Assembly (NCBI GenBank): GCA_021740105.1
Contig: JAIPAM010000002.1
Coordinates: 124,001-188,000 of the forward strand
Direction: 5' to 3'
Origin: Flavobacterium sp.
GTDB taxonomy: Bacteria > Bacteroidota > Bacteroidia > Flavobacteriales > Flavobacteriaceae
DNA: 64,000 nt
Position numbers and translations under genes: made by a program. This document shows positions 1 through 39,340 of this stretch, one piece after another. The notes below the pieces were generated by a model. The model had not been told where the DNA came from. It saw nothing but the letters and a program-made list of their open reading frames with translations, and searched no databases. Position 1 is the stretch's first letter, and each line of letters begins with the position of its first letter.

Positions 1-1
1 A

Positions 2-295
2 GATACCACTTTTGTTTTGAAAGAAGTTGAAGAATGCTCGGCCTCACTTTACAGTTCTAAAAATAATTTAAAAATGTTGGTTTATACAAATCAGCCGGCT
101 GTTCATATATATGTGGGAGGAAATTGTAATAATGAAATTAAAGGAAAGGAAAATACGGATTATCACAATTTGAGTGGGATTTGTTTTGAAACACAAAATT
201 TTCCTGATGCACCTAATCATGATAATTTCCCTAGCTCTATTTTAAGAAAAGAAGAAATGTACCATCATAAAACTAGATATAAATTTCAAAATTAG
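2..295 (+). CDS. galM: Aldose 1-epimerase, cytosolic type, C-terminal part (5' end outside window)
   Basis: The reading frame is open to the left edge, so only about the last 97 residues are present. They end in the typical GalM C-terminus: the GICFETQNFPDAPNH stretch carries the Glu that acts as catalytic base in this family, followed by the usual FPSSIL and a closing Y-K-F. The enzyme interconverts alpha- and beta-galactose so that galactokinase can use the alpha form. The stop lies 48 bases before galK, and galK, galT and a sugar symporter follow, which supports a galactose catabolic operon. A TTG codon at position 17 is not the real start because the frame continues upstream. A second, exported GalM lies at 25599-26747. 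Confidence 0.9.
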   Translation, partial: DTTFVLKEVEECSASLYSSKNNLKMLVYTNQPAVHIYVGGNCNNEIKGKENTDYHNLSGICFETQNFPDAPNHDNFPSSILRKEEMYHHKTRYKFQN

Positions 296-343
296 GCAAA
301 CCCTATTTAAAGAAATTAAATATAAACAATCAAGTAATAAATA

Positions 344-1510: not shown

Positions 1511-1516
1511 TTCATA

Positions 1517-2693: not shown

Positions 2694-4382
2694 ATGAATA
2701 CATTACAATTTGCAGACTACATGGTCTTTCTTGTTTACTTTTTTATAGTAGCTGGATATGGCTATTGGATTTACAAACGAAAACAAACAGCCAAAAACTC
2801 TGCTTCGCATGATTATTTTTTAGCTGAAGGTTCTTTAACTTGGTGGGCTATTGGAACGTCCTTAATTGCTTCCAACATTTCGTCTGAGCAATTTATTGCC
2901 ATGTCAGGCAATGGGTTTAAAATGGGATTGGCTATTGCAAGCTATGAATGGCTGTCGGCATTGACGTTAATTATTGTAGCTGTGTTTTTTATTCCTGTTT
3001 ACCTAAAAAATAAGATCTATACAATGCCGCAGTTCCTTAATCAAAGATATAACGGTGATATTGCTATGATTATGGCTGTTTTCTGGTTGTTATTGTATGT
3101 AATTGTTAATTTAACTTCTATCCTATATCTTGGAGCCTTAGCAATTAATGGAATTTCAGGTATTAATCTTGATTTGTGCATGTACGGATTAGCCTTTTTT
3201 GCTATTATTATTTCTTTAGGAGGTATGAAAGTTATCGGTTATACCGATGTTATACAGGTAGTATTCCTAATTTTTGGAGGTTTAGTAACTACTTATTTAG
3301 CATTAGATAAAGTAGCTGAATTAAATGGACAACATGGAATGGTAAACGGATTCAATTATATGATGAATCAATCTGGCGACCATTTTCACATGATTTTCAA
3401 AAAAGATAGTCCTAATTTTCCTAGTTTACCCGGACTAACCGTTTTATTAGGAGGTATGTGGATTGTAAACTTGAATTATTGGGGTTGTAATCAATATATA
3501 ACTCAAAGAGCGTTAGGTGCTGATTTAAAAACAGCTAGAAGCGGAATTTTATTCGCTGCTTTCTTAAAATTATTAATGCCTGTAATTGTTGTTTTACCTG
3601 GTATTGCTGCTTATGTAATTTATACAAAAGGGGGGTTACAAACAGAATTACTAGGTCCTGATGGCGTTTTAAATCCAGATAGATCCTATCCTATATTATT
3701 AAACTTATTGCCAGTTGGATTAAAAGGTTTATCGTTTGCTGCATTGACTGCTGCAGTTGTTGCTTCATTAGCAGGAAAAGTAAATAGTATTGCTACCATT
3801 TTCACATTGGACATTTACAAGAAAAAAATTGATGTAGATTGTAGTGAACAGAAAATGGTTCAAGTAGGAAAATGGGCTGTGTTTATAGCCATGATGTTAG
3901 CGGTAATTATTGCGCCCCACTTAGGAATTGATAAAAAAGGGGGATTCGAATTTATTCAAGAATACACTGGATTTGTTAGCCCTGGAGTTTTCGCCATGTT
4001 TATTTTAGGATTCTTCTGGAAAAAAACAAGTTCAAATGCTGCCCTATTTGCAACCATTGGAGGTTTCATATTATCAGTAGTATTTAAATTTTTACCCAAT
4101 TGGATGAATTTAGAGTTTTTAAATTCAACAGGTTTCGCTGTATTAGTCCCTCAAGAGAATGGAACAAGTTTGTATGAAATTCCATTCATTGACCGAATGG
4201 GATTTGTATTTGTAATCTGTGTGGCTATAATGATAGTTATTAGTTTATTTGACCAAAAACGAGGTATAAAGTCTAAAGGATTAGAAATAGAAACTTCTAT
4301 GTTTAAAGTGAACAGTAGCTTTTTAGCCGGAAGTTTATTAGTAACTGGAATCTTGGTTGCTTTGTATTCTGTCTTCTGGTAG
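2694..4382 (+). CDS. Sodium/solute symporter (SSS family), probable galactose or galactoside importer
   Basis: 562 residues with about 13-14 hydrophobic segments, the size and layout of SGLT-type sodium:solute symporters in the inner membrane. The family's early motif is visible around SNISSEQFIAMSG, in the second membrane region, as are the long cytoplasmic loops typical of SGLT proteins. Substrate cannot be read from sequence. Its position directly behind galM-galK-galT makes galactose, or a short galactoside released in the periplasm, the most likely cargo. A strong hairpin terminator follows, so the uptake and Leloir block appears to be a transcription unit of its own. Confidence 0.9.
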   Translation: MNTLQFADYMVFLVYFFIVAGYGYWIYKRKQTAKNSASHDYFLAEGSLTWWAIGTSLIASNISSEQFIAMSGNGFKMGLAIASYEWLSALTLIIVAVFFIPVYLKNKIYTMPQFLNQRYNGDIAMIMAVFWLLLYVIVNLTSILYLGALAINGISGINLDLCMYGLAFFAIIISLGGMKVIGYTDVIQVVFLIFGGLVTTYLALDKVAELNGQHGMVNGFNYMMNQSGDHFHMIFKKDSPNFPSLPGLTVLLGGMWIVNLNYWGCNQYITQRALGADLKTARSGILFAAFLKLLMPVIVVLPGIAAYVIYTKGGLQTELLGPDGVLNPDRSYPILLNLLPVGLKGLSFAALTAAVVASLAGKVNSIATIFTLDIYKKKIDVDCSEQKMVQVGKWAVFIAMMLAVIIAPHLGIDKKGGFEFIQEYTGFVSPGVFAMFILGFFWKKTSSNAALFATIGGFILSVVFKFLPNWMNLEFLNSTGFAVLVPQENGTSLYEIPFIDRMGFVFVICVAIMIVISLFDQKRGIKSKGLEIETSMFKVNSSFLAGSLLVTGILVALYSVFW

Positions 4383-4434: not shown

Positions 4435-4568
4435 CTTTGGATAATATTGCATTGAAGAAATATTGAAGCTATTTGAAACTAAAACACCAATTGTATGAGA
4501 CTTTTTGAACAATCGAAAGTGGTCTAAAATGTTTTAATTTGTATTTACTATATTTTTATGAAACTAAA

Positions 4569-5945
4569 TTGAAAAAGTATACTTTACCAATTCTTCTGAC
4601 TTTTTGTTTGTTTGTTTCCTCTGGCTACAGTCAAAAATTGGTCTATGAAAAAGGACCATTGGTATTAAAATCTAATTCCTTAGAAGATGGATTAGGACAA
4701 TTTGTAACTGCCGATTTGCCAAATTTGAGCCCAAAAAATAATATTGCATTAAAACTAGAAGCCTCGCCCCTATTCAAAAAAATGTGGGCAATAGCTCTTA
4801 ATGATGTCGAGCTCAACTTAATTACCAACAATTATGGGACTTATTTTGCTGCGGGACGTCGGTACAGCGACCGAATTTATACACGGGATATATCTTATGC
4901 AGGTATTTTGGGACTAAATACTTTATATCCCAAAGAAATGATGACTTCACTCCGTGTAACGAGAAATGTAGTATCTAAAATGGGTTACAAAGTTTCTAAA
5001 GAAGAGGTAATTAAAGAAATTGACGCTCCCTGGGAAGCAATTACAGACGATAGAAAACAAATAATGGCTCAGTTCAAAAGTAATAGTATTACTCGTCGTA
5101 CTGATGATGTAGTTTGGATTTGGGCCGTAGATGATTTGTTTACATTTAATCATGAAGTTGCCGATTGGAATTGGTTTTACACCAATGGTAAAAGTAATTT
5201 TGATACCCTTTATGCGCCTTGGTATGATAAAGCAGATGGTTTATACAAAGGTCAAAACACATTTCAGGACTTACAATCCGATGGCTATCCAGAGGGTTAT
5301 TCTCAAGCTGATTGCGTATTATTAAAAAGTACCTCAACCAATTGTTTGTACTATAAAGCGATGCTGGCATTGGCTAATGCTGCAAAAAAATGCAATCTAC
5401 CCGAAGAATCTAAAGTATGGACCAAAAAAGCCGAGTCGCTCAAAAAGGCTATTCTAAGAGAATTACTAATGCCCGATGGCACTTTTACTTATTTTAAAGA
5501 CAGAAACGGAAAAGTATTACCCAACCAGCACAATGTAGGAACTGCTTTTGCAATTCTATTTGGGATTGTAAAAGGGGAAGCCGCCAAAAAAGCTATTGAT
5601 AATTATCCCTCAAATCAATACGGAACGCCTTTAATTCATCCGTTTTTAGACAAAGTAACAGGAGATCACAATGCTGCCGCCTGGCCCTTTTGTGATACTT
5701 TTTTCTTACAAGCCAAAGAAATTGCAGATGGTAAAGACTATACCGGTTATAATGCGGCATTACTTGCCCGAACAATGGGAACTAAATTATCAGAAAAAAG
5801 AGATAAGGAATGGGGAGGATTTGGTTCATTTCACGAAAAAGTTCGCTTGCCCTCCGGTTTAATTTCGGGTTCGGGATCTCAACTATGGACCTCGGCGGCT
5901 TTTATGAACGTATGTTTGAGAGCCAAACTTGTTGATTTAAAATAA
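4569..5945 (+). CDS. Exported six-hairpin glycosidase-like protein, family unassigned; start region doubtful
   Basis: About 459 residues from the TTG at 4569 (an earlier in-frame TTG lies at 4539). The first residues form a signal peptide ending near SSGYSQ. The rest has the alternating helical pattern of (alpha/alpha)6 barrel glycosidases, with conserved-looking acidic/aromatic patches such as RYSDRIYTRD, RRTDDVVWIW and a late GDHNAAAWPF. I cannot assign a CAZy family. No in-frame ATG fits. An ATG at 4558 opens out of frame and hits TGA at 4570; one extra T there would give a normal N-terminus beginning MKLNLKKYTLP. So this is either a genuine TTG start, a sequencing indel or a recent frameshift. 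It precedes a clan GH-D glycosidase by 41 bases, probably in one operon. Confidence 0.7.
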   Translation: MKKYTLPILLTFCLFVSSGYSQKLVYEKGPLVLKSNSLEDGLGQFVTADLPNLSPKNNIALKLEASPLFKKMWAIALNDVELNLITNNYGTYFAAGRRYSDRIYTRDISYAGILGLNTLYPKEMMTSLRVTRNVVSKMGYKVSKEEVIKEIDAPWEAITDDRKQIMAQFKSNSITRRTDDVVWIWAVDDLFTFNHEVADWNWFYTNGKSNFDTLYAPWYDKADGLYKGQNTFQDLQSDGYPEGYSQADCVLLKSTSTNCLYYKAMLALANAAKKCNLPEESKVWTKKAESLKKAILRELLMPDGTFTYFKDRNGKVLPNQHNVGTAFAILFGIVKGEAAKKAIDNYPSNQYGTPLIHPFLDKVTGDHNAAAWPFCDTFFLQAKEIADGKDYTGYNAALLARTMGTKLSEKRDKEWGGFGSFHEKVRLPSGLISGSGSQLWTSAAFMNVCLRAKLVDLK

Positions 5946-5986: not shown

Positions 5987-8122
5987 ATGAATAGATTAAA
6001 AATAGTTTTCAGTTTAGTTCTTGTATTGGTATTACCAAAGCTCATGGCCCAACCCCTGATTAAATATTCCAATGGCAATCCAGAATACAGTATTCAATGG
6101 AACAAACAATTTGCACAAATTAATAACCTTACACCCGAAATTGAAATAAACGATAAATGGGTTTCGGTTAAAGAATTTAAAAACTTTCGTTGGGAGAAAA
6201 AAGAGGGTAATCGATTGAGTGAAGTAAACAATTATAATGGCAAAGTCGACTATTTGTATCTTATTTGCGAGAACCATCCCCTGATTTCCAATTTTACTAT
6301 TGTTTTTGAATTAATGGAAGGACGCCCTTATTTGGTAATGAGTTCATCATTAAAAGCTTCGGAGAAATTCAAATTGGGCGGAATCAAGTTGTTTAATTCT
6401 GCACAGGAAAATATAGTTTTGCCCGGAAATAGTAAAGATTGGTTGGTTTTTACTGAAAGTGCTTCTGCCCCACATACAGGCGGACTGATGTACCCGTACC
6501 AATTGAATACTAAAAAGGCAAAAGAAGGAACCTACTCAAAAGCGCACACCGGAGTTTGGTTGAGTATGTTGGTCAACGACAAAAAAAATTGTGCTTTTTC
6601 CTTTGCAAGTATAGCCAGTGAATTGTGGCCTAATAATTTCAAATGGGAATTGCCTGTTGCAGATGATTTCAATAAGCTAAAAGTTTCTGCACGAAGTGGT
6701 GCTATTTTCGAAAGAGAAAAAATTTGGGTTCCTGCTGGTAATACCATTACTACCGATGCCTTTTTGGTGGGCTACTGGGAAAACCAACGACCTACAAAAA
6801 CACTATTGGAAACTGGAAAAATTATGGGTAAAAATGTGCGAAAAGGTAAACCGATGCGCTTTCCAGAAGCAGGTTGGAGTTCTTGGCATTCCTATGATCG
6901 AAAGATCAGTGAAAAATCATTTTTGACTTCCGCTGATTTTATAAATACTAATTTGAAAGAGTACGGTTGGAAAACCATTCAAATTGATGGCGGGTGGTGG
7001 ACAGAACCTGGACTATATAGCGTGAATAATACCACTTTTCCTAATGGTATTCGATACCTGTCGGATTACGTAAATAAGTTGGGTCTTGACTTTGGTCTTC
7101 ATGTAAGTCCTTTACGAACCAATCCTAAAGATCCAATTATTTCAAAACATCCGAATTGGATTCTAAAACCACTAAATAATAAGAAAATTGCAAAAGGAGA
7201 TGATGAAATGGCGACAACTGTTGGAACAGTTTATGTTGATGGAAGCCACCCTGAAGTACCCGCTTTTTCAGCAGCAAGATACCAACAAATCGTTGAAGGA
7301 TATAGACCTTCGTTTATGAAATGGGACCACACTTATGGAGGTTTAGAAGAAGGGGTGCGATTTGATTCCACCATGACTTTTATGCAAGCTCACAATAAAA
7401 CGATACGTGCAGTTAGAAGTGCTTTACCTGATAATTTAATCGTGACACGCAGTATGGGTTATGTATTTGGAGCTTTAGAATGTTATGATGCCATTCGAAT
7501 AGGTAACGACATCAATCATCCTGGATATAAATCAGAAGCAGAACCCTACACCAACATTACCTATGGTAAAACCTTGGGGACTATTGAAGAGGAAAGAGTG
7601 GAAAAAGGCTTAATTCGATTCGCTCGTGCCGTGTCACAAAACTATTATATTCACAAAAATATAGCTATTGTAGATCCAGATGCTTTTTTTGTCTCTCCTC
7701 AATATACCATTGATGAAGCAAAATGCCACATGACTTTGGAAGCCATTATGGGAGGACTTTTCTTTTTTGGAGATAAAGTCGAATCATTACCCGCAGAACG
7801 TTTAGAGTTGTTAAAAAATAAGGAAATTATCGCAGTGAACAAACTTGGAGTTCATGCCATTCCTCTCGATTTATTTTCGGGTGTAGACATTCCTACCATT
7901 TGGAAATTAGAAACTAAAGACCGTCTGATTATTACCCTATACAACTGGTTGGACAAGGATGTTAGTAAAACATACCATCTGAAAACGGATTTCGAGTTAA
8001 ATAATTCAAAATACAAATTGACGGAATTATGGACTAATGAGAATTTCAAAATTGAATCCAATATGTTAACATTGGACCAACCTGCTCATTCAGTAAAAAT
8101 AATTGAGTTTGTGAAAAAATAA
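5987..8122 (+). CDS. Clan GH-D (GH36/GH27-like) glycosidase, putative exported alpha-galactosidase
   Basis: 711 residues with a clear signal peptide (cleavage after KLMAQ). A beta-rich N-terminal domain of about 290 residues is followed by a TIM barrel opening with AGWSSWHSYD and a C-terminal beta domain. Three clan GH-D hallmarks are visible: Asp334 in IQIDGGWW, the candidate nucleophile Asp447 in FMKWDHTYG, and the candidate acid/base Asp508 in RIGNDINHPG. GH36/GH27 enzymes with this arrangement remove alpha-linked galactose with retention. In this locus the likely job is cleaving alpha-1,3-galactose from oligosaccharides in the periplasm. A second, shorter homologue is at 12641-14491. Exact family and linkage are inferred, not shown. 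Confidence 0.82.
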   Translation: MNRLKIVFSLVLVLVLPKLMAQPLIKYSNGNPEYSIQWNKQFAQINNLTPEIEINDKWVSVKEFKNFRWEKKEGNRLSEVNNYNGKVDYLYLICENHPLISNFTIVFELMEGRPYLVMSSSLKASEKFKLGGIKLFNSAQENIVLPGNSKDWLVFTESASAPHTGGLMYPYQLNTKKAKEGTYSKAHTGVWLSMLVNDKKNCAFSFASIASELWPNNFKWELPVADDFNKLKVSARSGAIFEREKIWVPAGNTITTDAFLVGYWENQRPTKTLLETGKIMGKNVRKGKPMRFPEAGWSSWHSYDRKISEKSFLTSADFINTNLKEYGWKTIQIDGGWWTEPGLYSVNNTTFPNGIRYLSDYVNKLGLDFGLHVSPLRTNPKDPIISKHPNWILKPLNNKKIAKGDDEMATTVGTVYVDGSHPEVPAFSAARYQQIVEGYRPSFMKWDHTYGGLEEGVRFDSTMTFMQAHNKTIRAVRSALPDNLIVTRSMGYVFGALECYDAIRIGNDINHPGYKSEAEPYTNITYGKTLGTIEEERVEKGLIRFARAVSQNYYIHKNIAIVDPDAFFVSPQYTIDEAKCHMTLEAIMGGLFFFGDKVESLPAERLELLKNKEIIAVNKLGVHAIPLDLFSGVDIPTIWKLETKDRLIITLYNWLDKDVSKTYHLKTDFELNNSKYKLTELWTNENFKIESNMLTLDQPAHSVKIIEFVKK

Positions 8123-10392: not shown

Positions 10393-10396
10393 TTCT

Positions 10397-15235: not shown

Positions 15236-15336
15236 ATTGACATTTAATTGTGAAATGAGATAAAGTTTAATAGTGCCTTTAATAAACTATATGTTTTTAA
15301 GGCATTTATTCAAAATTGTCAAACAAAAAATTATTA

Positions 15337-28291: not shown

Positions 28292-29710
28292 TTAATGAAT
28301 TTTTACTTTTGCTTTTTTTGCTTTTTTTACTAAAGGAAAAATTTCTGACTCAATTCTGGCAGTTTGAGCTAATTTTATAAACTCTGCTTTAAGCTCTGGC
28401 ATTGTTTCAGCTAAATTATTTTTCTCAAAAGGATCTTGGACTAGATTGTAAATTTCAATATTTTGTTTTTGGGTTGTCTTATCGTAAACAAAATTTACCT
28501 TCATATCCCCTTTTCTAATGGCTTGACTTTGGCTACGTTCCCAATAGAGATAATCGTGTTGTTTTTGCTTGTCAGTTTTTCCTAATAGTGTAGGTAAATA
28601 AGAAATTCCATCGATATTCTCTGGTGTTTTTGCCTTTACAATCTCAGCACAAGTTGGCAAGAAATCCCAAAAAGCGGAGATGTGATTACTAGAGCTTCCA
28701 GGAATAATTTTTCCTTTCCAAAAAGCAATCAAGGGGCTTTTTATACCACCTTCATAAACTTCAGATTTTCTTCCTCTTAAATCTCCACCAGTACGAAGGT
28801 AACTATCTTGTTCCTTAGTAAGTGCCGATCCATTATCACTTGCAAAAATTATTAAAGTATCATCCAATAGATTCAGTTCTTTTAATTTTGAAACAATTTC
28901 ACCTACTTCTTGATCTAATCTCGACGTTAATGCCGCATATTTAGGTACACTGAAATCTTCTGAGTGAGCATCTCCTATAGGAAATCCTGTTTTTTTAGCA
29001 TAGTACTCTAAGGTTTTATCATCGGGTTGATGATACGGATTATGAGGTAAAGTAGGACAAAAATATAGAAAGAAAGGGTTGTTTTTGTTGGCTTCAACAA
29101 ACTCTAATGCTCTATCTTTAATAATATCTGCGCTGTAAACAGAATAGGGAGCGTCTACATTTGCATTTAATTCTACAAGGTCATTTTTACGCAAATAGGA
29201 AGTGAAATAATTATGAGCATGAATCTGACCATTAAAACCATAAAACTGGTCAAAACCTTGGTTGTTTGGAGATCCTTCTGAAGCTGGATAACCAAGTCCC
29301 CATTTACCAAAAGCACCTGTGTTGTATCCTGCAGTCTTCAGAATTTCGGCAACGGTAATTTCAGCAGCTGGAATAGGCTCATTCCCTTCATAAGGAAGTG
29401 CCCTATTGTCTCTAATATAAGCATGGCCAGTGTGTTTGCCCGTCATTAAAGTCCCTCTAGAAGGAGCGCAAATATTTGAACCACAGTAATGATTGGAAAA
29501 TTTCATTCCTTCTTTAGCAAGTTGATCAATGTTTGGAGTTTCTATTATTTTACCACCATAACTACCCAACTCATTGTACCCCATATCATCTGCTAGAATG
29601 AAAACTATATTAGGTCTTTTAACGTTTTTTGAATTGTTTTTTGCTTCTTGGGCCTGTATTCCAAATGCAGAAAGCAGGATTGCAAAAGCCAGTATCTTTT
29701 TTGTATTCAT
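28292..29710 (-). CDS. Formylglycine-dependent sulfatase B (S1 family)
   Basis: 472 residues, signal peptide ending AFGIQAQ. The active site reads: Asp41-Asp42 (ILADDMGYNELG), formylglycine Cys81 in C-A-P-S-R followed by TLMTG, then F-G-K-W-G-L-G, where a Gly replaces the His of the usual K-W-H-L, and F-A-S-D-N-G-S. The K-W-G-L form is found in some S1 subfamilies, so activity is expected but with a different substrate pocket from sulfatase A. It sits in the middle of the five-gene operon, 3 bases from sulfatase A and 21 bases from sulfatase C. The C-terminus is rich in lysine. Confidence 0.93.
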   Translation of the reverse strand: MNTKKILAFAILLSAFGIQAQEAKNNSKNVKRPNIVFILADDMGYNELGSYGGKIIETPNIDQLAKEGMKFSNHYCGSNICAPSRGTLMTGKHTGHAYIRDNRALPYEGNEPIPAAEITVAEILKTAGYNTGAFGKWGLGYPASEGSPNNQGFDQFYGFNGQIHAHNYFTSYLRKNDLVELNANVDAPYSVYSADIIKDRALEFVEANKNNPFFLYFCPTLPHNPYHQPDDKTLEYYAKKTGFPIGDAHSEDFSVPKYAALTSRLDQEVGEIVSKLKELNLLDDTLIIFASDNGSALTKEQDSYLRTGGDLRGRKSEVYEGGIKSPLIAFWKGKIIPGSSSNHISAFWDFLPTCAEIVKAKTPENIDGISYLPTLLGKTDKQKQHDYLYWERSQSQAIRKGDMKVNFVYDKTTQKQNIEIYNLVQDPFEKNNLAETMPELKAEFIKLAQTARIESEIFPLVKKAKKAKVKIH

Positions 29711-29731: not shown

Positions 29732-31324
29732 TTAATTTTCACCGTCTTTTTCAACAAACCCTGAAGGTATTGGAACTGTTTTTTTTCCGAATTTTTCGAA
29801 AAACTTATCAAACATACTATAATACTTTTCTTTATATAGTTTTTTGATTTTTTCCTCCCGAATCTGTGGATAGTAATCAAAAACATCTCCCTTACCAAGT
29901 ACTCTAGGATCCTTTTGTTTTTTTAAATCGGATTCCATCTTCGTTTTTAATTCTTTTATTAAGGAAGCATATTGAGGGTCGGATGCAATATTATTGACGC
30001 AATCAGGATCTTTTTCTAAATCAAATAGTTCATCAGCAGGTCGTTTACCAAAAGATAGCTTAAAATAATTATAATCTTTATCTCCTTCTTTTAAACCTGT
30101 CAAATAGTTTTTTGTTGGTGAATCGTCGCAATTGTTATAGTTAAATTCTGGATCTCCAACAGGCCATCTGTTCGGTTTATAATTGTGGGAGTATAGATAT
30201 TTATCAGTTCTAATTGCTCTAACTGGATAACTAACAGCAATTTGATCCCCATCTGAAGTACCATTATCGTGACGTTCTTTTCCAATTAGTGAATACGATC
30301 TTTTAGAATCAATGCGCCCCGATTTTTCAGATACTAATGCATCTAGAAAACTCTTTCCAGTCATTTGCTTGTCTGGTTTTAGCCCAGCTGCTTCCATTAG
30401 GGTTGGAGCCACATCGGGAAAGTTAATAAAGTCGGTAACTACTCTTCCTGGAATTATTTTGTCGCCCCATCTTACTACAAAAGCTTCATGAAAATCTTCA
30501 TCATAAATTTGTCCTTTCACATAAGGGAAAGGCATTCCTTGATCTGAGGTAGCAATAATAATGGTATTATCAAGTAAACCTCGCTTTTCTAAAGATGCCA
30601 ATGCTAAACCAATTTGACGATCATGGTATTCCACTTCTACTCCATAATCAGCCAAATCACCTCGAACTAATTCATTGTCAGGAAAAAAGCCTTGAACCGT
30701 AACTTTACTCAAATCTTTATTCTCCTTTTTATAAGAATCTTTTTCATATTTACGGTGCGCCTCATGAGTTCCAAACCAAAAACAGAATGGCTTTTCATTG
30801 TCTCTTTTGGTTAAAAACACCTCGAAATTAGCCGCATAATCTTTTTTACTTATCCCTTTATAAGGCGGAACAAGAGATATCTCATTGTATTCCCAACCAG
30901 CCGGATTGTGCTCTCCGTAATACACTCCAGGTCCCCAACCTTTTCCAGTATATCCTATTGTATATCCACTTTCCTCTAATAAGTTAGGATAAAATTTCCA
31001 TTTTGGAGGTATAACGGGAATGTGGTTAGCAGCTTCTTCTAATTGCCAAGAGTACCTTCCAGTTAAGAAACAAGCCCTAGATGGTGAACATTTTGGATTG
31101 CAAACATAGGCATTAGTAAAAAGTGCTCCTTCATTTGCAATTCGATCAAAATTGGGAGTTTTTATATATTTAGAACCATACACCCCCATACTATTTCGTG
31201 AGATGTCGTCACCCATAATAACAAGAATGTTTGGTCGCTTATTTTGGGCTACCCCTTTAATGGAATACAAAAAACTTAATGCTAACAATAAAGTAGTGGT
31301 TAATAAACTAAGACTTTTTTTCAT
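29732..31324 (-). CDS. Formylglycine-dependent sulfatase C (S1 family, sulfamidase-like type)
   Basis: 530 residues, signal peptide ending KGVAQ. Asp39-Asp40 bind metal (VIMGDDISRN). The formylglycine Cys79 lies in C-S-P-S-R followed by ACFLTG. The later motif is T-S-D-Q-G-M-P-F-P rather than S-D-N-G, which resembles the branch of S1 containing heparan N-sulfatases and several algal galactan sulfatases; this subfamily placing is a judgement by eye. Three sulfatases of visibly different type in one operon argue for a glycan sulfated at more than one position. It begins 30 bases after the GH42-like gene stop. Confidence 0.92.
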   Translation of the reverse strand: MKKSLSLLTTTLLLALSFLYSIKGVAQNKRPNILVIMGDDISRNSMGVYGSKYIKTPNFDRIANEGALFTNAYVCNPKCSPSRACFLTGRYSWQLEEAANHIPVIPPKWKFYPNLLEESGYTIGYTGKGWGPGVYYGEHNPAGWEYNEISLVPPYKGISKKDYAANFEVFLTKRDNEKPFCFWFGTHEAHRKYEKDSYKKENKDLSKVTVQGFFPDNELVRGDLADYGVEVEYHDRQIGLALASLEKRGLLDNTIIIATSDQGMPFPYVKGQIYDEDFHEAFVVRWGDKIIPGRVVTDFINFPDVAPTLMEAAGLKPDKQMTGKSFLDALVSEKSGRIDSKRSYSLIGKERHDNGTSDGDQIAVSYPVRAIRTDKYLYSHNYKPNRWPVGDPEFNYNNCDDSPTKNYLTGLKEGDKDYNYFKLSFGKRPADELFDLEKDPDCVNNIASDPQYASLIKELKTKMESDLKKQKDPRVLGKGDVFDYYPQIREEKIKKLYKEKYYSMFDKFFEKFGKKTVPIPSGFVEKDGEN

Positions 31325-31354: not shown

Positions 31355-33118
31355 TTATTTTCGTTGAATATTTACTTCAATTCCGTTAAAAATATCATCG
31401 ATTGAATCTGTATTTACCAACACGAAGTCAGACTCCATTTTTCCACTTTGGTTTAACTGCATATCGGCAACATCAACTGTCACTGATTTCCACTCATTAT
31501 TGCCCTTCCCTTTTACCTGTAGAGCAGTTTTTAATTCTTTTCCATTGCTGTATTGTAATGCCCAAGTTGACCCTAGGTTTTTATCCAACCAAGTGATCGT
31601 AAATTTTAAACTTTTTGGTTTTGAAGTGGTAAACACCTCATCGTCAAACTTAAAATACATAGTATTTTTTCCTGTCGAATTTTCAAAAGAACGAGCAAAA
31701 CGGTCGTATTTAGAAGAGTTTTTGTCTATCTCACCTCTAATTCTGAAAAGACCAATAGAAGTTTCGTCGGGTTTAATTTGATATAAAAATCGTTCATAAT
31801 TTCCTTCAGCAATATCCCATCCGGCATCATTATATCCCTTTTGTCTCTCTCGTTGGTCTACTTGACCTATAGCAGCTAATGCTAAATCATCCATTTTCGC
31901 CCCTCTTGCTTCATAAGCATTACAAATGTTTGTATAGCGATCCAAGTTTTTGATATTTGCTTTTCCGAATTTTTTCTCTGGGAATTTTATCGTATCAGCT
32001 GCATTTAGACCTTCATGAAAAACAGAAAAGACTGTCTTAGAAGAAGCTGGATAGACTTGTTGAGCATATTTGTTGTACATTTTAAAAATGTCTCTAATTT
32101 CTTTATGTTCCAAGGCATATTTAATGGCGCTTTTTGAACAATTGTAAGAAGATAACCCCGTATTAATTCCGCTTAGTGCAGACCAATAAAAAGCCAATTC
32201 TGTATTAATAGTAAATATTTCTTTTTTCCATGACTCATCCATTTCAGAAGCTGAGAAAAGTTTCATCCCTTTAGGATTAATTAAATACTGATTCCATTGT
32301 TTTTTGAATGATTGTTCACCTGTTAAATGGTGTCCCCTATTGTAAGCTCCTCCTTTAATTCCAAAACCAATTTTAGGGTCAATAGTCGTCATTACCCAAT
32401 TGTTAGCAACGGGAGTTTTTATAGGGTCAACATTATTAAATGTTAATACAATTTGACGATCCGACACATCATTAAAATATTTCTTAAATTGTTCGAATGC
32501 TTCTATCCGATATTTCTCCCATACTGTTTTTTTATCAATGGCAAATTTTTCATCTATAGGCTCTCCTTTGTATGGTTCTTCGTCACCAGTAGCTCCTGTT
32601 TTAACTTGAACAAAAGCAATACAATCAAATTTTTCTTTCGGCTGACTTCTTAAAAAATGTGAGAATTGTTTAATTAATTCAAAATAATATATCTTATGAT
32701 TTTCATTTAAATAATAAGGGTAATTACCGAATTTTTTAGCGTGCTTTTCAGGCTTATGACTTTTTACTTTGACCAATGGAACTCCATTATCATAGAGCCA
32801 TAAAGGGGAATTTGGCCCAACATTAATGCTTATTTTTACTATTTTATGGTATTTGGCTGCTTTATCTAAAACCTCTTGAAACATAGAAAAATCAAACTTA
32901 CCCGGCCCCATGGATTGTACTTCTGCCCAAGTGGCTGAAACTTCAATGCCCATGACAAAGTCTGCCTTTGGATCAGAATAATCATCAACTCCTCCTCCAC
33001 GATCCCAAACACCATAAGAACTTATAGGAACCGCTATTTTTTGTGCTTGTGATTCTGTTATTAAAAAAAGAACAAAGGAAAGAAAGGCAATGTATTTATA
33101 AAGAGCTTGCATAATCAT
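31355..33118 (-). CDS. Exported GH42-like clan GH-A glycosidase, paralogue 3
   Basis: 587 residues, signal peptide ending ESQAQ. It is the simplest member of the family: barrel plus one C-terminal beta-sandwich and no extra tail. It shares S-Y-G-V-W-D-R-G at the start, I-N-V-G-P-N-S-P-L-W-L, Q-V-K-T-G-A-T-G-D-E (candidate Glu180) and F-S-A-S-E-M-D-E-S-W (candidate nucleophile Glu292) with the copy at 34892. Without a T9SS domain it should stay in the periplasm, where it would work with the three sulfatases of the same operon, of which it is the first gene. GH42-like beta-galactosidase activity is inferred from fold and context. Confidence 0.82.
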   Translation of the reverse strand: MIMQALYKYIAFLSFVLFLITESQAQKIAVPISSYGVWDRGGGVDDYSDPKADFVMGIEVSATWAEVQSMGPGKFDFSMFQEVLDKAAKYHKIVKISINVGPNSPLWLYDNGVPLVKVKSHKPEKHAKKFGNYPYYLNENHKIYYFELIKQFSHFLRSQPKEKFDCIAFVQVKTGATGDEEPYKGEPIDEKFAIDKKTVWEKYRIEAFEQFKKYFNDVSDRQIVLTFNNVDPIKTPVANNWVMTTIDPKIGFGIKGGAYNRGHHLTGEQSFKKQWNQYLINPKGMKLFSASEMDESWKKEIFTINTELAFYWSALSGINTGLSSYNCSKSAIKYALEHKEIRDIFKMYNKYAQQVYPASSKTVFSVFHEGLNAADTIKFPEKKFGKANIKNLDRYTNICNAYEARGAKMDDLALAAIGQVDQRERQKGYNDAGWDIAEGNYERFLYQIKPDETSIGLFRIRGEIDKNSSKYDRFARSFENSTGKNTMYFKFDDEVFTTSKPKSLKFTITWLDKNLGSTWALQYSNGKELKTALQVKGKGNNEWKSVTVDVADMQLNQSGKMESDFVLVNTDSIDDIFNGIEVNIQRK

Positions 33119-33302: not shown

Positions 33303-34727
33303 TTATTCTTTAATAAATTGTTTTGAAACAATATTACCGTTTTCTTGCACTACTTTAACTATGTAAGCCCCTTTTCCTATAGCTGCAATATTCACATTTG
33401 TAGAATTGTTATTGGAAACTACGTTTCTACCTTGCATATCATATACTTCAATTTTAGTAATGTTATTAGATGAACTTATATTCAAAACCTCTTTTGCAGG
33501 ATTTGGATATAATGAAATTGTATTGTTTGTATTTCCAAAGTCTGCAGTAGCTAAAGGAACAATATTATCAAAAACAATTGAATCAACATATACAGAATTA
33601 GTTAAAGGATTTATATTCAATGCACCTCCCAGAATTGCACCAGCAGCAGGAGCAACTGCACCTGTTGCATCACATACTACCCAATTAGTAGTATCCGTTT
33701 GAGGTACTGCAGGTGATATACTGTTTGCACCAGATATGTTTTTACAGTAGGTATTTCCTGAAATTACGATGTTACCTATTTCATAAGTCGCTGTTGCCAA
33801 CCAAGTAGTTTTAACCCCAAAGTTTAATTCAGGAAATTGAGATCCATTATCCCAAGTAGTTAAATCAAAATCATATGTTTTATAATTAGCATCAGAAGTA
33901 GTATAGTTTTGTACTGGATTAAAAGCAGTTAAAACACTTGCTACTTTTCCATTTAATTGAAATAAAGTGTTGTTTGAAGTGTTTTTTAAAGTAATGTGTG
34001 CATACCTATTTGTACCTTCAACACGAAAAACGATAGGTGATAAAGATACTTTACCATTATTAACACTTGCAGTATTACAGTTAACCATTAAAGTACCCCT
34101 TGAAGATTCAGATGCTTGAACAGCAGTTGCTCTTGTAAGTGTAGTAAATCCCTCCGTTGTTGAATCAAAATTATATGTGTTTTGTATAGGTGCAACAAAA
34201 TTTCTAGGTCTAACATAATCAATACTTATTACCGTACCGACAGTGCTTGGTGCAGTTTGTGGAACATAATTATTACCACTCGTAGTACCATCATTAAGTT
34301 TAAATTCTAAAGAAAGAGCACTTACAGTACCAGATGATGTCAAAGTAAAAGTATAAATTCTATAATCGGCATCAGCTGTAGTAATAACACAATTATAAGT
34401 ATTTAAAACGGTCCCAATTGTTGTAGTTAGTCTCAAATAAGATGCGGCAGAACCGTTTTTTATCCTAACCTCTATTTGGTTGTTAGCATTAGCATCTATA
34501 TTTGCAGATGTTTTAGTGAATGTTGGATTTCTTGAAGTTGCAGAAGACCCAGTTATAGTTGTATATTCAATAGCTGTTCCTGTTGCATTAAGGATACCAG
34601 CAGCACCAGCTGATCCTTGAGAAACAGTCCATCCCTCCGAATTAGAAGCAGTGTTAAATTCCCACGGACCTTGAGCAAAGGTCAAGAAAGGTAAGATTAA
34701 AAATAAATAGGTAATTTTTGTTTTCAT
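33303..34727 (-). CDS. Secreted T9SS protein with two tandem beta-sandwich modules
   Basis: 474 residues. A signal peptide ends LTFAQ. Two similar modules follow, at about residues 20-180 and 185-330: each opens with an 'F-x-x-x-x-x-S/T-E-G-W/F-T' motif and has a later 'D-A-D/N-Y-R/K-x-Y-x-F/D' element, so the second looks like a duplication of the first. They read like jelly-roll carbohydrate-binding domains. The last 75 residues are a type A T9SS sorting domain (L-Y-P-N-P-A-K-E ... K-G-A-Y-I-V-K-V ... K-Q-F-I-K-E). There is no catalytic domain visible, so it is probably a surface-anchored or released glycan-binding protein. It lies directly downstream of the large T9SS enzyme. Confidence 0.8.
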   Translation of the reverse strand: MKTKITYLFLILPFLTFAQGPWEFNTASNSEGWTVSQGSAGAAGILNATGTAIEYTTITGSSATSRNPTFTKTSANIDANANNQIEVRIKNGSAASYLRLTTTIGTVLNTYNCVITTADADYRIYTFTLTSSGTVSALSLEFKLNDGTTSGNNYVPQTAPSTVGTVISIDYVRPRNFVAPIQNTYNFDSTTEGFTTLTRATAVQASESSRGTLMVNCNTASVNNGKVSLSPIVFRVEGTNRYAHITLKNTSNNTLFQLNGKVASVLTAFNPVQNYTTSDANYKTYDFDLTTWDNGSQFPELNFGVKTTWLATATYEIGNIVISGNTYCKNISGANSISPAVPQTDTTNWVVCDATGAVAPAAGAILGGALNINPLTNSVYVDSIVFDNIVPLATADFGNTNNTISLYPNPAKEVLNISSSNNITKIEVYDMQGRNVVSNNNSTNVNIAAIGKGAYIVKVVQENGNIVSKQFIKE

Positions 34728-34891: not shown

Positions 34892-37800
34892 TTAATTCAC
34901 TGTTTTTTTAATTACTACTTTACCATTCTGGTCTTTAACTTTAACAATCAATACTTGTTTGGTTGTATTCAAATTATTGATTGTAGCTGTAGTAGCTTTT
35001 ACTGCTTTTTGATGTGCAATTAATCTTCCCTGAATATCGTAAACTTCAATGGTATCAATAACACTTGTTCCAGAATTGACATATAAAGTTTCATTGTTCA
35101 AATAAATTCTTACATTGTTCTCATTAAATTCTGGCGCATCTACGTTCAATGTTCTTTGGTATTTCAATAAAAATCTCGCGTTGTCTATTCCGGCTGGTGC
35201 ATTGAAAGTATAAGAACCTACTTTCAAATCTATTTCATTACCAGTAATGTTATCTTTAAGATAAATAGCTTGTTGCCCAGTAAACAATCCGTCTACATGG
35301 TCTAGGGCAATGGTGTAATTTCCTGCAACATTGGTTTTGAAACCCAACTGTACCGTATCTGAAGTAGTAAAAGGTAGTGCTCGACCTTGTATGGTATATT
35401 CCCCAGCGCTTATAATAGAGGTTAAAGCAATTGGAGCATCGTTGATGTATTTTCCATCCAATGAATCTACTCCTTGCGTTGCTTCTGCCATATAACTTAC
35501 AAGCATTTGGCTGAAAACTCCTGAAGTATTAGTCAAATTCAACCAAATACGGTTTCTTTCCACTGTAGTTGTTCTTAGAAAAACAGTTGAAGTACTTAGC
35601 GTGGCTCTCATTGTATTGGTAAATTTCAAATCCATATTAGCACTAGGAGAAACGAAAAATCCTTGTCCAACTGCAATATCTGTTGAGGGTACTAATCCAT
35701 CAATAGTAGATGCAACTCCACCAGCATTAGTTCTTGTTGCATAGGCTGTCCCACCGACTCCATTTGTTTTTCTCCAGAAATATAACGTTCCAGCGTTTGG
35801 GTTTTCGGTATAAAAAGCAGCTACATTTATAGTTGATGGATAGGGATTTCCAACTGCGTAATATTTTCCAGAAAGAAGTCCTGGAATTTCTACAGTACCA
35901 TTATTTGGAACCCCTGTGAAAATTCCTCTGAAAGTAGTTGAAGTATTAGCAGTCCAATTATTTGGAGCACGTATTAAATATCCTGTTGCAGTGGCAAAAG
36001 GAGTAGTTGTTGGGTTTGGGTTAGTAACTGCATTATATTGATTAGTGCTAGAATTGTAGGTGTAAAAACGAGAATCTAGAGTTTCTGGCGAAAATGCCTT
36101 TAAATTTTGTCCTGCCACAGGCGAACTCCATAACGTATAATCATATAATTTCATATTGTCACTGTCTCTTTTTACGATGACGTTTCCAGAATTGATATTG
36201 GTAGTTCCCCCCTGAATTAAGTTGGCATTATTAGAAACCGTAAATGTACCATTATTAGTAACTGCACCTGCAACTGTGATGTTGTGACCAGTATTGATTG
36301 TGAATGTTTTATTTGCATTAACGGTTAATATTCTTGTGGAAAATCCTGCTGTATCGCCATTATCCGTTGTTAAAAAATTATCATTAATTATTGCAACATC
36401 AGATGCTGTTGGAGTTCCGTTAGACCAAGCTCCGCCATCCCAAGTGGTAATTTTATATGGAGTTACTGAATTTGATGCGGCACTTTCGGCGCTTTGTCCT
36501 ATACTATTTGTTGCCCTTAATGTAAAGGTATAAGCCGTTCCACTAGTCAATCCAGTCATTATTATGGTACCACTTCCTGACTGACTTAAAGTTCCAGTAA
36601 ATCCTCCAGGAGAAGATGTTGCTGTATAGGAAGTAATTGTTGAATTACCATTGAATACAGGAGCTGTAAATGAGATTGAAGCCTGCCCACTGACTCCCGA
36701 AACTGTTGCTGTTCCTATAGTAGGAGCGTTTGGCACACCAACTGAGGTAATAATAATTTGCCCATTTCCTCCTGCGGCTCCCTTATTACTTCCAGAAGTC
36801 GCACCATAAGCACCTCCGCCACCGCCACCCGGAGAAGTTCCTGCAATTCCATTACCCACAGATGTTTTACTTGCTCCTCCGGCACCACCCATGGCTCCAG
36901 CTCCTGAACCTCCGGCTCCACCTGATCCACTAGTTCCAGATGCACCAGGTAATCCTATAGCTACTGTGCCACCTGAACCACCTGAGTTTGTACCCCCTGC
37001 TCCCAATTGTCCTGTTGCAGTTGTTCCGCTTCCTCCAATACCACCATTTGCAATAACAGGAGTCGTTGATCCAAATGTTGTATTAATTCCGTTATTTCCA
37101 TTAGCCCCACCATTACCACTTTGTTCTCCTCCAGCACCCACTGTCACATTATAACTTGTTTCAGGAACAACGCTAACGTTTTCATTTATCACATAGGAAC
37201 CACCTGCGCCACCACCCCCAAAACCAGCTAAAGAGGTTCCACCGCCGCCACCGCCACCGCCCCAAGCTTCGACTTTTATTTTATTTATTCCTGCTGGGCA
37301 TATCCAAGTATTGTTTCCAACAGTAGAAATAGTAGTTTGATGATATACTGTTAATTCCTGGACAACTGATGTTGCTGGATTATAGCCGTTATTACCCGCT
37401 TGTGAAGCTGTAATTGTGGTTGATCCTAGACCAACGATGTGAATCATATTGTTAACAATGGTTGCCACATTAAGATTAGAACTCGTATAGGTAATCGCTA
37501 AGCCAGAACTGGCTGTTGCCCCCGGATTAAAGTCTGCATCTCCTATTTTTTTAAATGGCAATGGGTTGAAATTTATAGTTTGAGGTTGTATACCGACACC
37601 GATAATATTCATTTCAATTCCATTAAATATGTCATTATCTGCATCAGTGTTGACCAACATAAAATCGGAACCATTTAAACCACCTTGATTCATAGTGCCA
37701 TCAATGATATTAAAAATTTCTGTTTTCCATTGATTAGTTCCAGTTCCCGTAAAAGGGATGGTCTGAAGACCTAAGGAATTTCTGTATTTAAATGCCCAAG

Positions 37801-39340
37801 AAGAACCCGGATATTTATCCAACCAAATAATGGTAAATTTTAAGTTTTTATTAGTTGCAGGTAATTCATTATGCAATTGGAAATACATCGTATTTTTACC
37901 AGTACTATTCTCGAAAGAACGAGCAAAACGATCGTACTTAGAAGAAGTTGAAGTTATAGTTCCTCGCACCCTGAACAATCCTATGGAGGTAGCATCAGGA
38001 TTTATTTGAGTCATAAATCGCTCAATATTTCCTTCGCAAATTTCCCATCCTACATCATTGTAAAACTGTTGATTTTCACGTTGATTTACTTGTCCAGATG
38101 TTACAAAAGATAAATCATCTAAACGCGCTCCTCTATTGACATATGCTTCACATATATTCTGATAGCGAGCTATATTGCTCCTGTTAGCGGTACCATAAGT
38201 CGCTACTGGGAATTTAACTGTATCTGCCGAATTGAGTCCTTCATGAAAAACAGAAAAAGCAGTTGTGGCACTTGCCGGATAAACCTGTTGGGCATATCTG
38301 TTATACATTTTGAAAATGTCAATAATCCCAGGATTTGCTAAAGCATATGTCATGGCACTTTCTGTAATGTTGGTACAAGAAAGCCCTGTATTAATTCCCC
38401 CGAGGGCAGACCAATAAAAACCTATTTCATAGTTCAAAGCAAAAAAACCTCTGGACCAAGATTGATCCATTTCTGAAGCTGAAAATAATTTTCTACCAGT
38501 TGGATTAATTAAAAATGGATTCCATTGCTCTTTGTAGGTTTGCTCATCTGACAAATGATGTCCACGGTTATACGCTCCCCCTTTAATACCAAATCCAAGT
38601 ACTGGATCTAATTGGTTCATTACATAGTTATATGCATCTGGTTCATCTAAAGGATCTACATTATTGAACGTTAAAACAATTTTGCGCTCAGAAACATCAT
38701 TGAAATATTCTTTAAATTTTGCGAAAGCTTCTAAACGAAATGCTTCCCATTGTGAAGAAGTTATGGTATAACTAGGATTAATTACATCTCCTTTGTATGG
38801 CGCTTCGTCACCCGTAGCACCTGTTTTTACTTGCACGAAAGCTATATGATCGAATTTTTCTTGAGGTTGATTTCTCAAAAATAAGGCAAATCGTCTAATC
38901 AATTCAAAATAGTATGCTTTATAATCTGGATCTAAATAATGAGGATGTCTATTAGCGTAATTTTGATTTGAATTAGGGGCAATAGTTACATATACTAATG
39001 GAACACCATTACTAAAAAGCCAAGAAGGGCAATCAGGTCCAACATTAATACTAAATCGAATCTTCTTATCGTGGGTAACAGCAAGATCTAATTTTTGTTG
39101 AAATAAACTAAAGTCAAAACTAGTTAATCCGGTAGGTTGAATTTCATCCCAATTAGCGGAAATTTCAATACCTTTAATAAAGTCGGAATTTGGATTGGAA
39201 TAGTCCACAACTCCTGCCCCACGATCCCAGACCCCATAAGAGGTAATTGGTAGGGATTGTGATTGTGAATGTGATTTTGTAACAAATAAAAGTACTAAAC
39301 CAAGTATGGCGGAGTATTTATATAGAGCTTTCTTAATCAT
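34892..39340 (-). CDS. Large secreted GH42-like enzyme with Ig-like, glycine-rich and FN3 modules and T9SS signal, paralogue 4
   Basis: 1482 residues, signal peptide ending KSHSQ. Residues about 28-590 are a full GH42-like enzyme nearly parallel to paralogue 3 (candidate Glu179 in TGDE, Glu290 in SEMDQSW). Then come an Ig-like repeat of the 'A-T-I-V-N-N' type (about 600-675), a glycine-rich domain opening W-I-C-P-A-G and running in G-G-G tracts (about 685-875), a fibronectin type III domain (about 880-965), a beta-helix-like part (about 970-1080), a longer region of unknown fold, and a T9SS type A sorting domain (about 1405-1482). It should act on the cell surface as the first enzyme to meet the polymer. 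It is the first gene at the PUL's right edge. Confidence 0.85.
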   Translation of the reverse strand: MIKKALYKYSAILGLVLLFVTKSHSQSQSLPITSYGVWDRGAGVVDYSNPNSDFIKGIEISANWDEIQPTGLTSFDFSLFQQKLDLAVTHDKKIRFSINVGPDCPSWLFSNGVPLVYVTIAPNSNQNYANRHPHYLDPDYKAYYFELIRRFALFLRNQPQEKFDHIAFVQVKTGATGDEAPYKGDVINPSYTITSSQWEAFRLEAFAKFKEYFNDVSERKIVLTFNNVDPLDEPDAYNYVMNQLDPVLGFGIKGGAYNRGHHLSDEQTYKEQWNPFLINPTGRKLFSASEMDQSWSRGFFALNYEIGFYWSALGGINTGLSCTNITESAMTYALANPGIIDIFKMYNRYAQQVYPASATTAFSVFHEGLNSADTVKFPVATYGTANRSNIARYQNICEAYVNRGARLDDLSFVTSGQVNQRENQQFYNDVGWEICEGNIERFMTQINPDATSIGLFRVRGTITSTSSKYDRFARSFENSTGKNTMYFQLHNELPATNKNLKFTIIWLDKYPGSSWAFKYRNSLGLQTIPFTGTGTNQWKTEIFNIIDGTMNQGGLNGSDFMLVNTDADNDIFNGIEMNIIGVGIQPQTINFNPLPFKKIGDADFNPGATASSGLAITYTSSNLNVATIVNNMIHIVGLGSTTITASQAGNNGYNPATSVVQELTVYHQTTISTVGNNTWICPAGINKIKVEAWGGGGGGGGTSLAGFGGGGAGGSYVINENVSVVPETSYNVTVGAGGEQSGNGGANGNNGINTTFGSTTPVIANGGIGGSGTTATGQLGAGGTNSGGSGGTVAIGLPGASGTSGSGGAGGSGAGAMGGAGGASKTSVGNGIAGTSPGGGGGGAYGATSGSNKGAAGGNGQIIITSVGVPNAPTIGTATVSGVSGQASISFTAPVFNGNSTITSYTATSSPGGFTGTLSQSGSGTIIMTGLTSGTAYTFTLRATNSIGQSAESAASNSVTPYKITTWDGGAWSNGTPTASDVAIINDNFLTTDNGDTAGFSTRILTVNANKTFTINTGHNITVAGAVTNNGTFTVSNNANLIQGGTTNINSGNVIVKRDSDNMKLYDYTLWSSPVAGQNLKAFSPETLDSRFYTYNSSTNQYNAVTNPNPTTTPFATATGYLIRAPNNWTANTSTTFRGIFTGVPNNGTVEIPGLLSGKYYAVGNPYPSTINVAAFYTENPNAGTLYFWRKTNGVGGTAYATRTNAGGVASTIDGLVPSTDIAVGQGFFVSPSANMDLKFTNTMRATLSTSTVFLRTTTVERNRIWLNLTNTSGVFSQMLVSYMAEATQGVDSLDGKYINDAPIALTSIISAGEYTIQGRALPFTTSDTVQLGFKTNVAGNYTIALDHVDGLFTGQQAIYLKDNITGNEIDLKVGSYTFNAPAGIDNARFLLKYQRTLNVDAPEFNENNVRIYLNNETLYVNSGTSVIDTIEVYDIQGRLIAHQKAVKATTATINNLNTTKQVLIVKVKDQNGKVVIKKTVN
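36740..37300 (-). repeat. Glycine-codon-rich tract inside the large T9SS enzyme
   Basis: About 560 bases made largely of GGN codons on the minus strand. The GC content is far above the surrounding DNA, and long spurious proline- and leucine-rich open frames appear in other frames. It encodes the glycine-rich domain. Confidence 0.8.

Follow-up and report, generated by a model that had tools for sequence, protein, structure and literature searches.

The breakdown of sulfated galactans is known from seas and guts. In the lambda-carrageenan polysaccharide-utilization locus (PUL) of Pseudoalteromonas distincta U2A, as set out in the part of the report available to us, a sulfated alpha/beta-galactan without anhydrogalactose is degraded through a pathway comprising GH150, GH110, GH2, S1_8 and S1_15 enzymes, with exo trimming after desulfation and galactose as the end product (PMC12549532). 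Sulfatases adjoining glycoside hydrolase (GH) genes have also been reported from lake genomes of Verrucomicrobia, with sulfated-polysaccharide degradation as the proposed function, and the available portion of that work describes neither a galactan PUL nor the GH42-like family discussed below (PMC5615132); a search of the open-access PMC literature, with subscription papers outside its scope, found no report of a freshwater sulfated-galactan PUL. The window analyzed here comprises 64,000 bp (positions 124001–188000 of contig C10) of a Flavobacterium sp. genome of 2.19 Mb that is 97.9% complete, and its positions 1–39340, together with the start of a galM gene and a GntR gene immediately to the left, form a Bacteroidota PUL. 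The PUL is of a known kind; its enzyme set, unassigned families and habitat are its new part. The reading that we favor, with a confidence a little better than even and on sequence evidence, is that this SusCD-based locus with a hybrid two-component regulator (HTCS) would serve the use of an alpha/beta-galactan that is sulfated, free of 3,6-anhydrogalactose and derived from inland waters, and that a GH42-like enzyme (d) would cut at the cell surface.

Bacteroidota PULs are recognized by a SusC/SusD pair, degradative enzymes and a sensor regulator, and all of these are found in the locus. It extends from galM and the divergent GntR gene on the left to a GH42-like protein with a type IX secretion system (T9SS) tail that ends at 39340, and it is laid out in two arms that meet at the HTCS gene (21121–25245, − strand). 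The + strand arm carries the Leloir genes, a symporter, hydrolases and SusCD, whereas the − strand arm carries the HTCS, a galM gene, three sulfatases and two GH42-like genes. Every gene class that an earlier note on this DNA had named (two clan GH-D enzymes, four GH42-like proteins, three sulfatases, SusCD, HTCS, galK-galT, two galM and a symporter) was recovered from open reading frames (ORFs) and Pfam matches. The SusC-type TonB-dependent transporter (15316–18429) and the SusD-type glycan-binding lipoprotein (18437–20149) lie on the + strand, as do galK, encoding galactokinase (344–1510; PF10509 at 5.7e-18, with GHMP), galT, encoding galactose-1-phosphate uridylyltransferase (1517–2566; PF01087 at 8.3e-69), and a Na+/sugar symporter of the SSF type (2694–4382). 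The two galM genes for aldose 1-epimerase are one on the − strand at 25599–26747 (Pfam, 7.8e-78), the product of which has an N-terminus resembling a signal peptide by eye, and one on the + strand that starts 0.74 kb left of the window, next to the divergent GntR regulator (7.9e-11), and ends at position 295 (1–295 in the window; PF01263 at 4.4e-58). A galactose-rich, sulfated and anhydrogalactose-poor substrate, as the earlier note had proposed, is supported by these Leloir genes, the GH-D enzymes, sulfatases akin to S1_15 and S1_16, and the lack of an anhydrogalactose pathway in the locus, and a sulfated galactan is hence a fair inference from the gene content.

The three sulfatases, all encoded on the − strand, carry the C-x-P-S-R motif at residues 78, 81 and 79, respectively; C-x-P-x-R is kept in 8/8, 9/11 and 14/16 sequences of the three groups, those of the window included, and a formylglycine-generating enzyme (FGE) for such sulfatases is present in the genome. 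The first (26750–28288) scores 645 bits against 7ozc, and its similarity to PDB entries S1_15A and S1_15B (484 and 482 bits) places it by sequence in S1_15; it is 46% identical to two sulfatases of the Pseudoalteromonas carrageenovora carrageenan plasmid. Since the S1_15 enzymes of the lambda pathway are given as 6-O-sulfatases in the part of the source at hand (PMC12549532), this S1_15-like enzyme is predicted to act on galactose 6-O-sulfate. For the second (28292–29710), the nearest structures are 7ana and 7an1, which we take to be S1_16, and 9fo1, named k-carrageenan sulfatase S1_16, scores 216 bits against 199 bits for an exo-4S-kappa carrageenan sulfatase; the enzyme, which may be closer to S1_16 than to S1_19, is described as S1_16-like, with galactose 4-O-sulfate as its predicted target. 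The third (29732–31324) is not assignable to a subfamily, its nearest matches, 7p24 (132 bits) and S1_8A (130 bits), both being weak, and it is 27% identical to a plasmid sulfatase. Several of the best PDB relatives of the first two are named N-acetylgalactosamine (GalNAc) sulfatases, and S1_15-like relatives adjoin GH88 and kduI, a uronate-type context, on a Flammeovirga plasmid. Because of the latter, the sulfatases by themselves are no proof of galactose, and it is the Leloir genes and the GH-D pair that point to galactose. The same two observations would fit a sulfated glycan of animal type, such as mucin, keratan or a chondroitin-like chain, released by fish or zooplankton. We regard this as quite improbable, given that no GH20, GH29, GH33, GH84, GH88 or amino-sugar catabolic gene was recognized in the locus and that the genome has a separate sulfatase cluster with chondroitinase B-like and KduI genes.

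Both GH-D enzymes are encoded on the + strand and show the melibiase barrel and two Asp by which the clan is recognized, and they are placed here at the level of the GH27/GH36 clan. Enzyme 1 (5987–8122; Pfam Melibiase, 1.6e-11) is alpha-galactosidase-like, with candidate catalytic residues Asp447 and Asp508 conserved in 11/11 sequences, and enzyme 2 (12641–14491; Melibiase, 1.3e-8) is GH36-like, with candidate residues Asp360 and Asp432 conserved in 13/13; in both cases the catalytic Asp are presumed from motifs. Alpha-galactosidases are the best PDB matches of both, which argues against a sulfated arabinogalactan, for instance of green algae, from which some of the GH-D or GH42-like enzymes would remove L-arabinopyranose. 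This substrate gains some weight from a weak kinship of both GH-D enzymes to a GH27 beta-L-arabinopyranosidase, from the inclusion in GH42 of the alpha-L-arabinopyranosidase 5xb7, and from a GH127 gene that stands beside GH42-like genes in one related locus (L093). No arabinose catabolic gene was recognized in the locus, however, whereas the galactose genes are complete, and the arabinogalactan is accordingly deemed unlikely.

Carrageenan and agar enzymes were sought by comparing 19 window proteins (E ≤ 1e-3) with 22 proteins of the P. carrageenovora carrageenan plasmid (NZ_CP027525.1), a set with two GH16 and with proteins taken as GH150, GH110, GH167, GH2, an alpha-galactosidase, anhydrogalactose enzymes and sulfatases, where the GH150, GH110 and GH167 roles were assigned by annotation, length and position on the plasmid. 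Matches were confined to galK, the symporter and the three sulfatases, and the anhydrogalactose-type plasmid enzymes gave none among the 19 proteins. Across the genome, a single cycloisomerase-like query from a Microscilla plasmid yielded one partial match at 24%, and the GH150 and GH110 queries matched nothing in the genome or the locus, a weak negative in that the search had no positive-control genome. By Pfam, no GH2 is present in the locus. The statement of the earlier note that no anhydrogalactose pathway or carrageenan endo-enzyme is recognizable in the locus thus agrees with the plasmid comparison, which included no reference query for GH82, GH50, GH86 or GH117, and the DNA to the left of the window shows no recognizable anhydrogalactose pathway or agarase up to 60 kb (first 60–70 residues of ORFs by eye, and Pfam for ten selected ORFs). 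PF00722 identifies three GH16 genes in the genome, none of them on the contig of the window, and GH3 and SusCD-like ORFs accompany two of the three.

These results bear on lambda-carrageenan or another red-seaweed galactan as the substrate, which the earlier note had entertained and which we now consider highly improbable. In its favor, the lambda pathway also has S1_15 and S1_8, to the latter of which the third window sulfatase is weakly similar, and the window symporter shows 45% identity with a sodium/sugar symporter adjoining sulfatases on the P. carrageenovora plasmid, which matches the lambda PUL and likewise has a galK. Relatives of the locus also occur in Polaribacter BAL334, a Baltic isolate, and BAL38. 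Against it stand the lack of a GH150 or GH110 match in the genome and of GH2 in the locus, on which the identification as a lambda-carrageenan PUL was rejected, together with an S1_16-like sulfatase for which lambda-carrageenan does not call and relatives that, where their titles can be read, come chiefly from lakes. The galactan-degrading system that we propose would share with the U2A locus a sulfated alpha/beta-galactan without anhydrogalactose, S1_15, trimming from the ends after desulfation and galactose as the product, but the GH150, GH110, GH2 and S1_8 of that pathway, as the accessible text gives it (PMC12549532), contrast with a GH42-like family, a GH-D pair, an S1_16-like sulfatase, SusCD/HTCS and T9SS export here.

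The four GH42-like proteins had been put forward as unassigned candidates for opening the chain, a role for which they remain putative candidates. Enzyme a (8437–10392, +) and protein b (10397–12172, +; start codon chosen by eye within the ORF 10235–12172) are neighbors, enzyme c (31355–33118, −) lies next to the sulfatases, and enzyme d (34892–39340, −), the proposed extracellular chain opener, combines a catalytic domain, a Gly-rich domain, fn3 and a T9SS C-terminal signal. Enzyme a ends in a Lys/Glu/Asp-rich tail (window 10200–10392), the coding sequence of which shares bases, in a different frame, with the long ORF from which protein b is read. All four are mutually homologous, with identities to c of 60% for d, 41% for a and 28% for b, so that their description as four related proteins stands, but along most of their length they are not of GH42 type: only one of them reaches Pfam GH42 (PF02449; 2.9e-7), over residues 61–153, and 20 of 34 family members match it weakly. 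Profile comparison with twelve GH42-type proteins from congeners, among which the ten that were scanned all proved to be full GH42, gives 96% probability over 100 columns, confined to residues 56–158 and ending before strand 4.

To sample the family, 84,980 species genomes were scanned with the peptide patterns S[YF]GVWDRG and F[VI]QVKTG[AC], giving 85 confirmed stretches, of which the 78 loci listed are the basis of the counts out of 78 below; being exact, the patterns could miss distant marine relatives. From the pattern-scan loci and a congener locus (L015), 130 GH42-like ORFs were found, and the 114 retained (>88% coverage, no X) make, with the four window proteins, a set of 118 sequences, 117 of them different. 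Gly175, Thr177, Gly178 and Asp179 (G-x-T-G-D after the presumed strand 4) are invariant in all 118, and Glu292, at the end of the presumed strand 7, is present in 117. An Asn-Glu acid/base motif after strand 4 is a defining feature of GH42 and of clan GH-A, and no Asn-Glu occurs at residues 167–189 in any of the 118. GH42 membership was therefore rejected: the half-barrel similarity to GH42 beta-galactosidases stops at residue 158, there is no full-length similarity, and GxTGD stands in place of Asn-Glu. GH167, too, was formerly called GH42-like. The available part of its description has it exo-acting in the kappa/iota-carrageenan pathways (PMC12549532), and membership was likewise rejected, the P. 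carrageenovora protein taken as GH167 showing no profile similarity (hhalign probability 0.3%, no HMM match). From these comparisons with GH42 and GH167, the GH42-like proteins are best described as a family of their own, a distant branch near GH42 and not GH42, for which a CAZy number may already exist.

Residue 180 divides the family, with Glu in 99 sequences, Gly in 11 and Arg, Lys or Gln in 8, proportions to be read with the fact that one search pattern spans residues 169–176, which inflates the share of T174-type members at the expense of the other two layouts. Within the window, a, c and d are of the T174/E180 type and b of the F174/R180 type, with no Glu at 174 or 180. In the Gly180 group, residue 174 is Glu in ten of the eleven and Thr in the other (L057); these ten E174/G180 sequences (L027, L033, L034, L035, L044, L046, L062, L067, L083) look as if the acid residue had shifted by six positions. 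The R/K/Q180 group has Phe at 174, retains Asp179 and Glu292, and constitutes an orthologous group spanning Bacteroidota and Verrucomicrobiota, in which the orthologues of protein b come from L042, L076, L077, L080, L081, L083 and L093. A tree (FastTree, local support only, midpoint-rooted for drawing, long branches flagged) sets the 11 Gly180 and 8 R/K/Q180 rows together, apart from the other 99, with the latter eight as one supported set. The view of b as simply a dead enzyme was dropped, because Asp179 and Glu292 are conserved in it and its orthologues, and an altered mechanism is equally likely.

A structure model of c, built from a 101-row alignment without near-copies, has a pLDDT of 94 and a pTM of 0.91 and shows a TIM barrel and a beta domain, in which the strand 287–292 ends at Glu292 and Asp179 and Glu180 lie in the loop following strand 167–171. 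Glu292 is a candidate for the nucleophile that clan GH-A enzymes have at the end of strand 7, and the fold may be of that clan. Foldseek ranks GH35 beta-galactosidases first (E 4e-9, with a TM-score of only 0.40 by query length), and the best VIA-align Z scores are those of beta-amylase (15.0), GH5 (14.8) and GH42 (13.5) chains; the nearest solved folds of the model are hence TIM barrels that include GH35, GH42 and GH5 and also GH14, all at low TM-scores. GH167 is not among the 50 VIA-align matches listed, which does not count as evidence against it.

In the proposed mechanism, the HTCS would sense an oligosaccharide and induce the locus, and the T9SS-secreted enzyme d would cut the chain at the cell surface, releasing oligosaccharides for import by SusC/SusD. 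O-sulfate would then be removed in the periplasm, from C6 by the S1_15-like enzyme, probably from C4 by the S1_16-like enzyme, and from a further position by the third sulfatase. Alpha-galactose would be taken off by the GH-D enzymes and beta-galactose by the GH42-like enzymes a and c, and galM, the symporter, galK and galT would lead the galactose into the Leloir pathway. That desulfation would come ahead of exo cleavage is argued from the order in the lambda cascade; this order of steps, like the substrate, the cut sites, the endo-action of d, the sulfate positions and the locations of a and c, is something that we infer. At the sequence level, the scheme draws support from gene content, family-level enzyme classes, formylglycine motifs, the T9SS signal on d and the partial conservation of the gene set elsewhere.

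That conservation can be followed through the 78 loci, counted with matches of 60 bits or less excluded. At least one sulfatase-like ORF is present in 46, a GH-D gene in 21, an (alpha/alpha)6-like gene in 10 and at least two GH42-like genes in 32; among the 51 loci of at least 10 kb, the figures are 35 for sulfatase-like, 19 for GH-D and 26 for at least two GH42-like genes. For comparison, the 2.19 Mb of the window's own genome hold 10 sulfatase matches. Relatives of SusC/SusD are found in 8 of the 78 and of the gal genes in 11, and 24 have none of the sulfatase, GH-D and (alpha/alpha)6 genes; a large share of the 78 lie on short contigs or outside the Bacteroidota. Relatives at ≥60% identity to the first, second and third sulfatase were counted in 9, 11 and 15, respectively, of 80 loci examined. 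Three loci (L019, L021, L022) keep the window's order of GH42-like c, third, S1_16-like and S1_15-like sulfatase, galM and HTCS at 81–96% identity. Flavobacterium luteum NBRC 112527, a named strain with most of the gene set, has all three sulfatases (82–92%), GH-D 1 and 2, a fragment of the (alpha/alpha)6-like gene and SusCD (75 and 68%) in four stretches on two contigs. The sulfatases are retained at 65–84% in bins with the titles Chitinophagaceae, Cytophagales or Bacteroidia/Bacteroidales, and loci of Verrucomicrobiota type (L047, L059, L093) combine GH42-like genes with GH-D 2 (70–71%) and the (alpha/alpha)6-like protein (52–54%); such titles of metagenome bins, some of which mislead, were not trusted as taxonomy. 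The GH127 gene of L093 (17690–19354), from a bin with the title Akkermansiaceae, is a clear one and comes after the (alpha/alpha)6-like gene, GH-D 2 and four GH42-like genes.

Within the window's genus, 398 genomes were compared and 118 matched; 12, among them that of the window, did so strongly (E ≤ 5.5e-210), and the other 106, with E values no better than 3.8e-14, were disregarded. All 12 measure 1.7–2.4 Mb, as did 5 of 36 congeners in an earlier sample; incomplete bins make such sizes rough, and F. luteum, which stands outside this size comparison, also carries the genes. A sugar-polymer locus is seen to be retained in small-genome lineages of the genus.

Several observations weigh against the galactan reading. 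Among the 78 loci, 32 are without a sulfatase-like ORF, 57 without GH-D, 70 without SusC/SusD and 67 without gal relatives, and the small number with SusCD or gal relatives lowers our confidence; some of the sulfatase relatives counted are, moreover, only about 25% identical. Alpha-GalNAcases and beta-L-arabinopyranosidases likewise belong to clan GH-D, and alpha-L-arabinopyranosidases to GH42; GalNAc is a further target of S1_15 and S1_16, and the third sulfatase matches no subfamily clearly. Action of the GH42-like family inside a chain is conjectural, no classical endo-enzyme is present, and Foldseek TM-scores are low (0.29–0.40 by query length).

The origin of the related loci bears on the source of the polymer. 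By title, 23 of the 78 can be tied by name or code to inland waters (Erken 7, Loc 5, Pavin 2, Baikal 2, pond 2, groundwater 2, Fresh 2, La Plata 1), 19 a code read as a lake, 4 are Baltic isolates, and 32 are not placeable, one of which (CSMAG, L043) could be a cold seep. Erken, Loclat and La Plata are sampling sites in the accessible part of PMC8121793, and the Loc codes are read as Loclat, sampled in 2008–2009. The 19 further codes (RE/RH 6, ZE 4, Jr 2, Mi/Mo/Ma/Tr 7) fit, in our own reading of them, lakes named in the text seen of PMC9166423, among them Rimov, Zurich, Jiricka, Milada and Most. The four Baltic loci belong to the Polaribacter strains BAL38, which we take to be of Baltic origin, and BAL334. 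The latter was isolated from Baltic water of 6.4–7.6 PSU, according to the part of the source consulted (PMC9671461). Where titles can be read, the relatives are therefore chiefly lake bins plus Baltic isolates, and no title among the 78 names a seaweed or open-sea source. The seaweed origin implied by the earlier note thus finds no support, and a polysaccharide of inland waters is a likelier substrate than a gel of seaweeds.

Extracellular polysaccharides (EPS) of cryptophytes contain galactose, and one species has a sulfated fucose-rich polymer, as far as the available text tells (PMC7884888). No more follows from this than that algae of this kind can have sulfated EPS. A more far-reaching proposal, which we advance tentatively and hold to be rather less probable than not, is that the GH42-like proteins make up a new family of glycoside hydrolases, opening and trimming a sulfated galactan of inland-water phytoplankton, with three catalytic layouts (T174/E180, E174/G180 and F174/[K,R,Q]180) around the invariant GxTGD, and that the locus marks a galactan guild of small-genome lake Flavobacterium. 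The 4S/6S(/2S) pattern may, in this proposal, resemble mu/nu-carrageenan, which is 4S with 6S or 2,6S. If the locus recurs in lakes and brackish water, a sulfated galactan would have to be sufficiently widespread in inland waters to feed bacteria specialized on it, the enzymes of the locus would be a means to find that polymer, and the family would be a new one with an unusual layout of acid residues.

Three features of the locus were not in the earlier gene list. The first is the (alpha/alpha)6-like protein (4539–5945, +), of unassigned family, which is found near GH42-like genes in Bacteroidota and Verrucomicrobiota; its GH78/GH63-type Pfam match falls below both cut-offs in the window protein, PF17389 is weakly matched by 10 of 12 members of its group, and a profile search of the PDB returned chance-level matches only. 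The others are a lipoprotein-like protein with a DUF5017 N-terminus in a SusE/F-like position (20165–20896, +) and a T9SS-exported protein (33303–34727, −) that may be a surface glycan-binding protein. To the right of the locus lie three tRNA genes (39741–39996), past which ten ORFs scanned encode proteins of no special bearing on glycans (thiolase, NlpC/P60, TPR, gyrase A, Clp, aromatic amino acid lyase, GcvT, a pyridoxal phosphate enzyme and two peptidases). About 20 kb to the left of the window lies a GH127-like gene (C10:101628–103544), which, with some 19 kb of other genes by eye between it and the locus, is not counted as part of the latter; it is the divergent member of a cluster with PhyH, an isomerase-like gene, a major facilitator superfamily sugar transporter and GH92 (C10:96449–103544). 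A second sulfatase cluster (C10:262001–302000) holds 5 of the genome's 10 sulfatase matches together with KduI, chondroitinase B-like, FGE, SusCD-like and HTCS genes, and from its sequence looks like a locus for a uronate-containing sulfated polysaccharide. Lastly, a stretch on contig C11 (L007:9464–13998), with 72% DNA identity over 250 bases to the galM at the left edge of the window, has a galM-like ORF and, after it, genes for GH53 and GH2 that may serve the use of plant beta-1,4-galactan.

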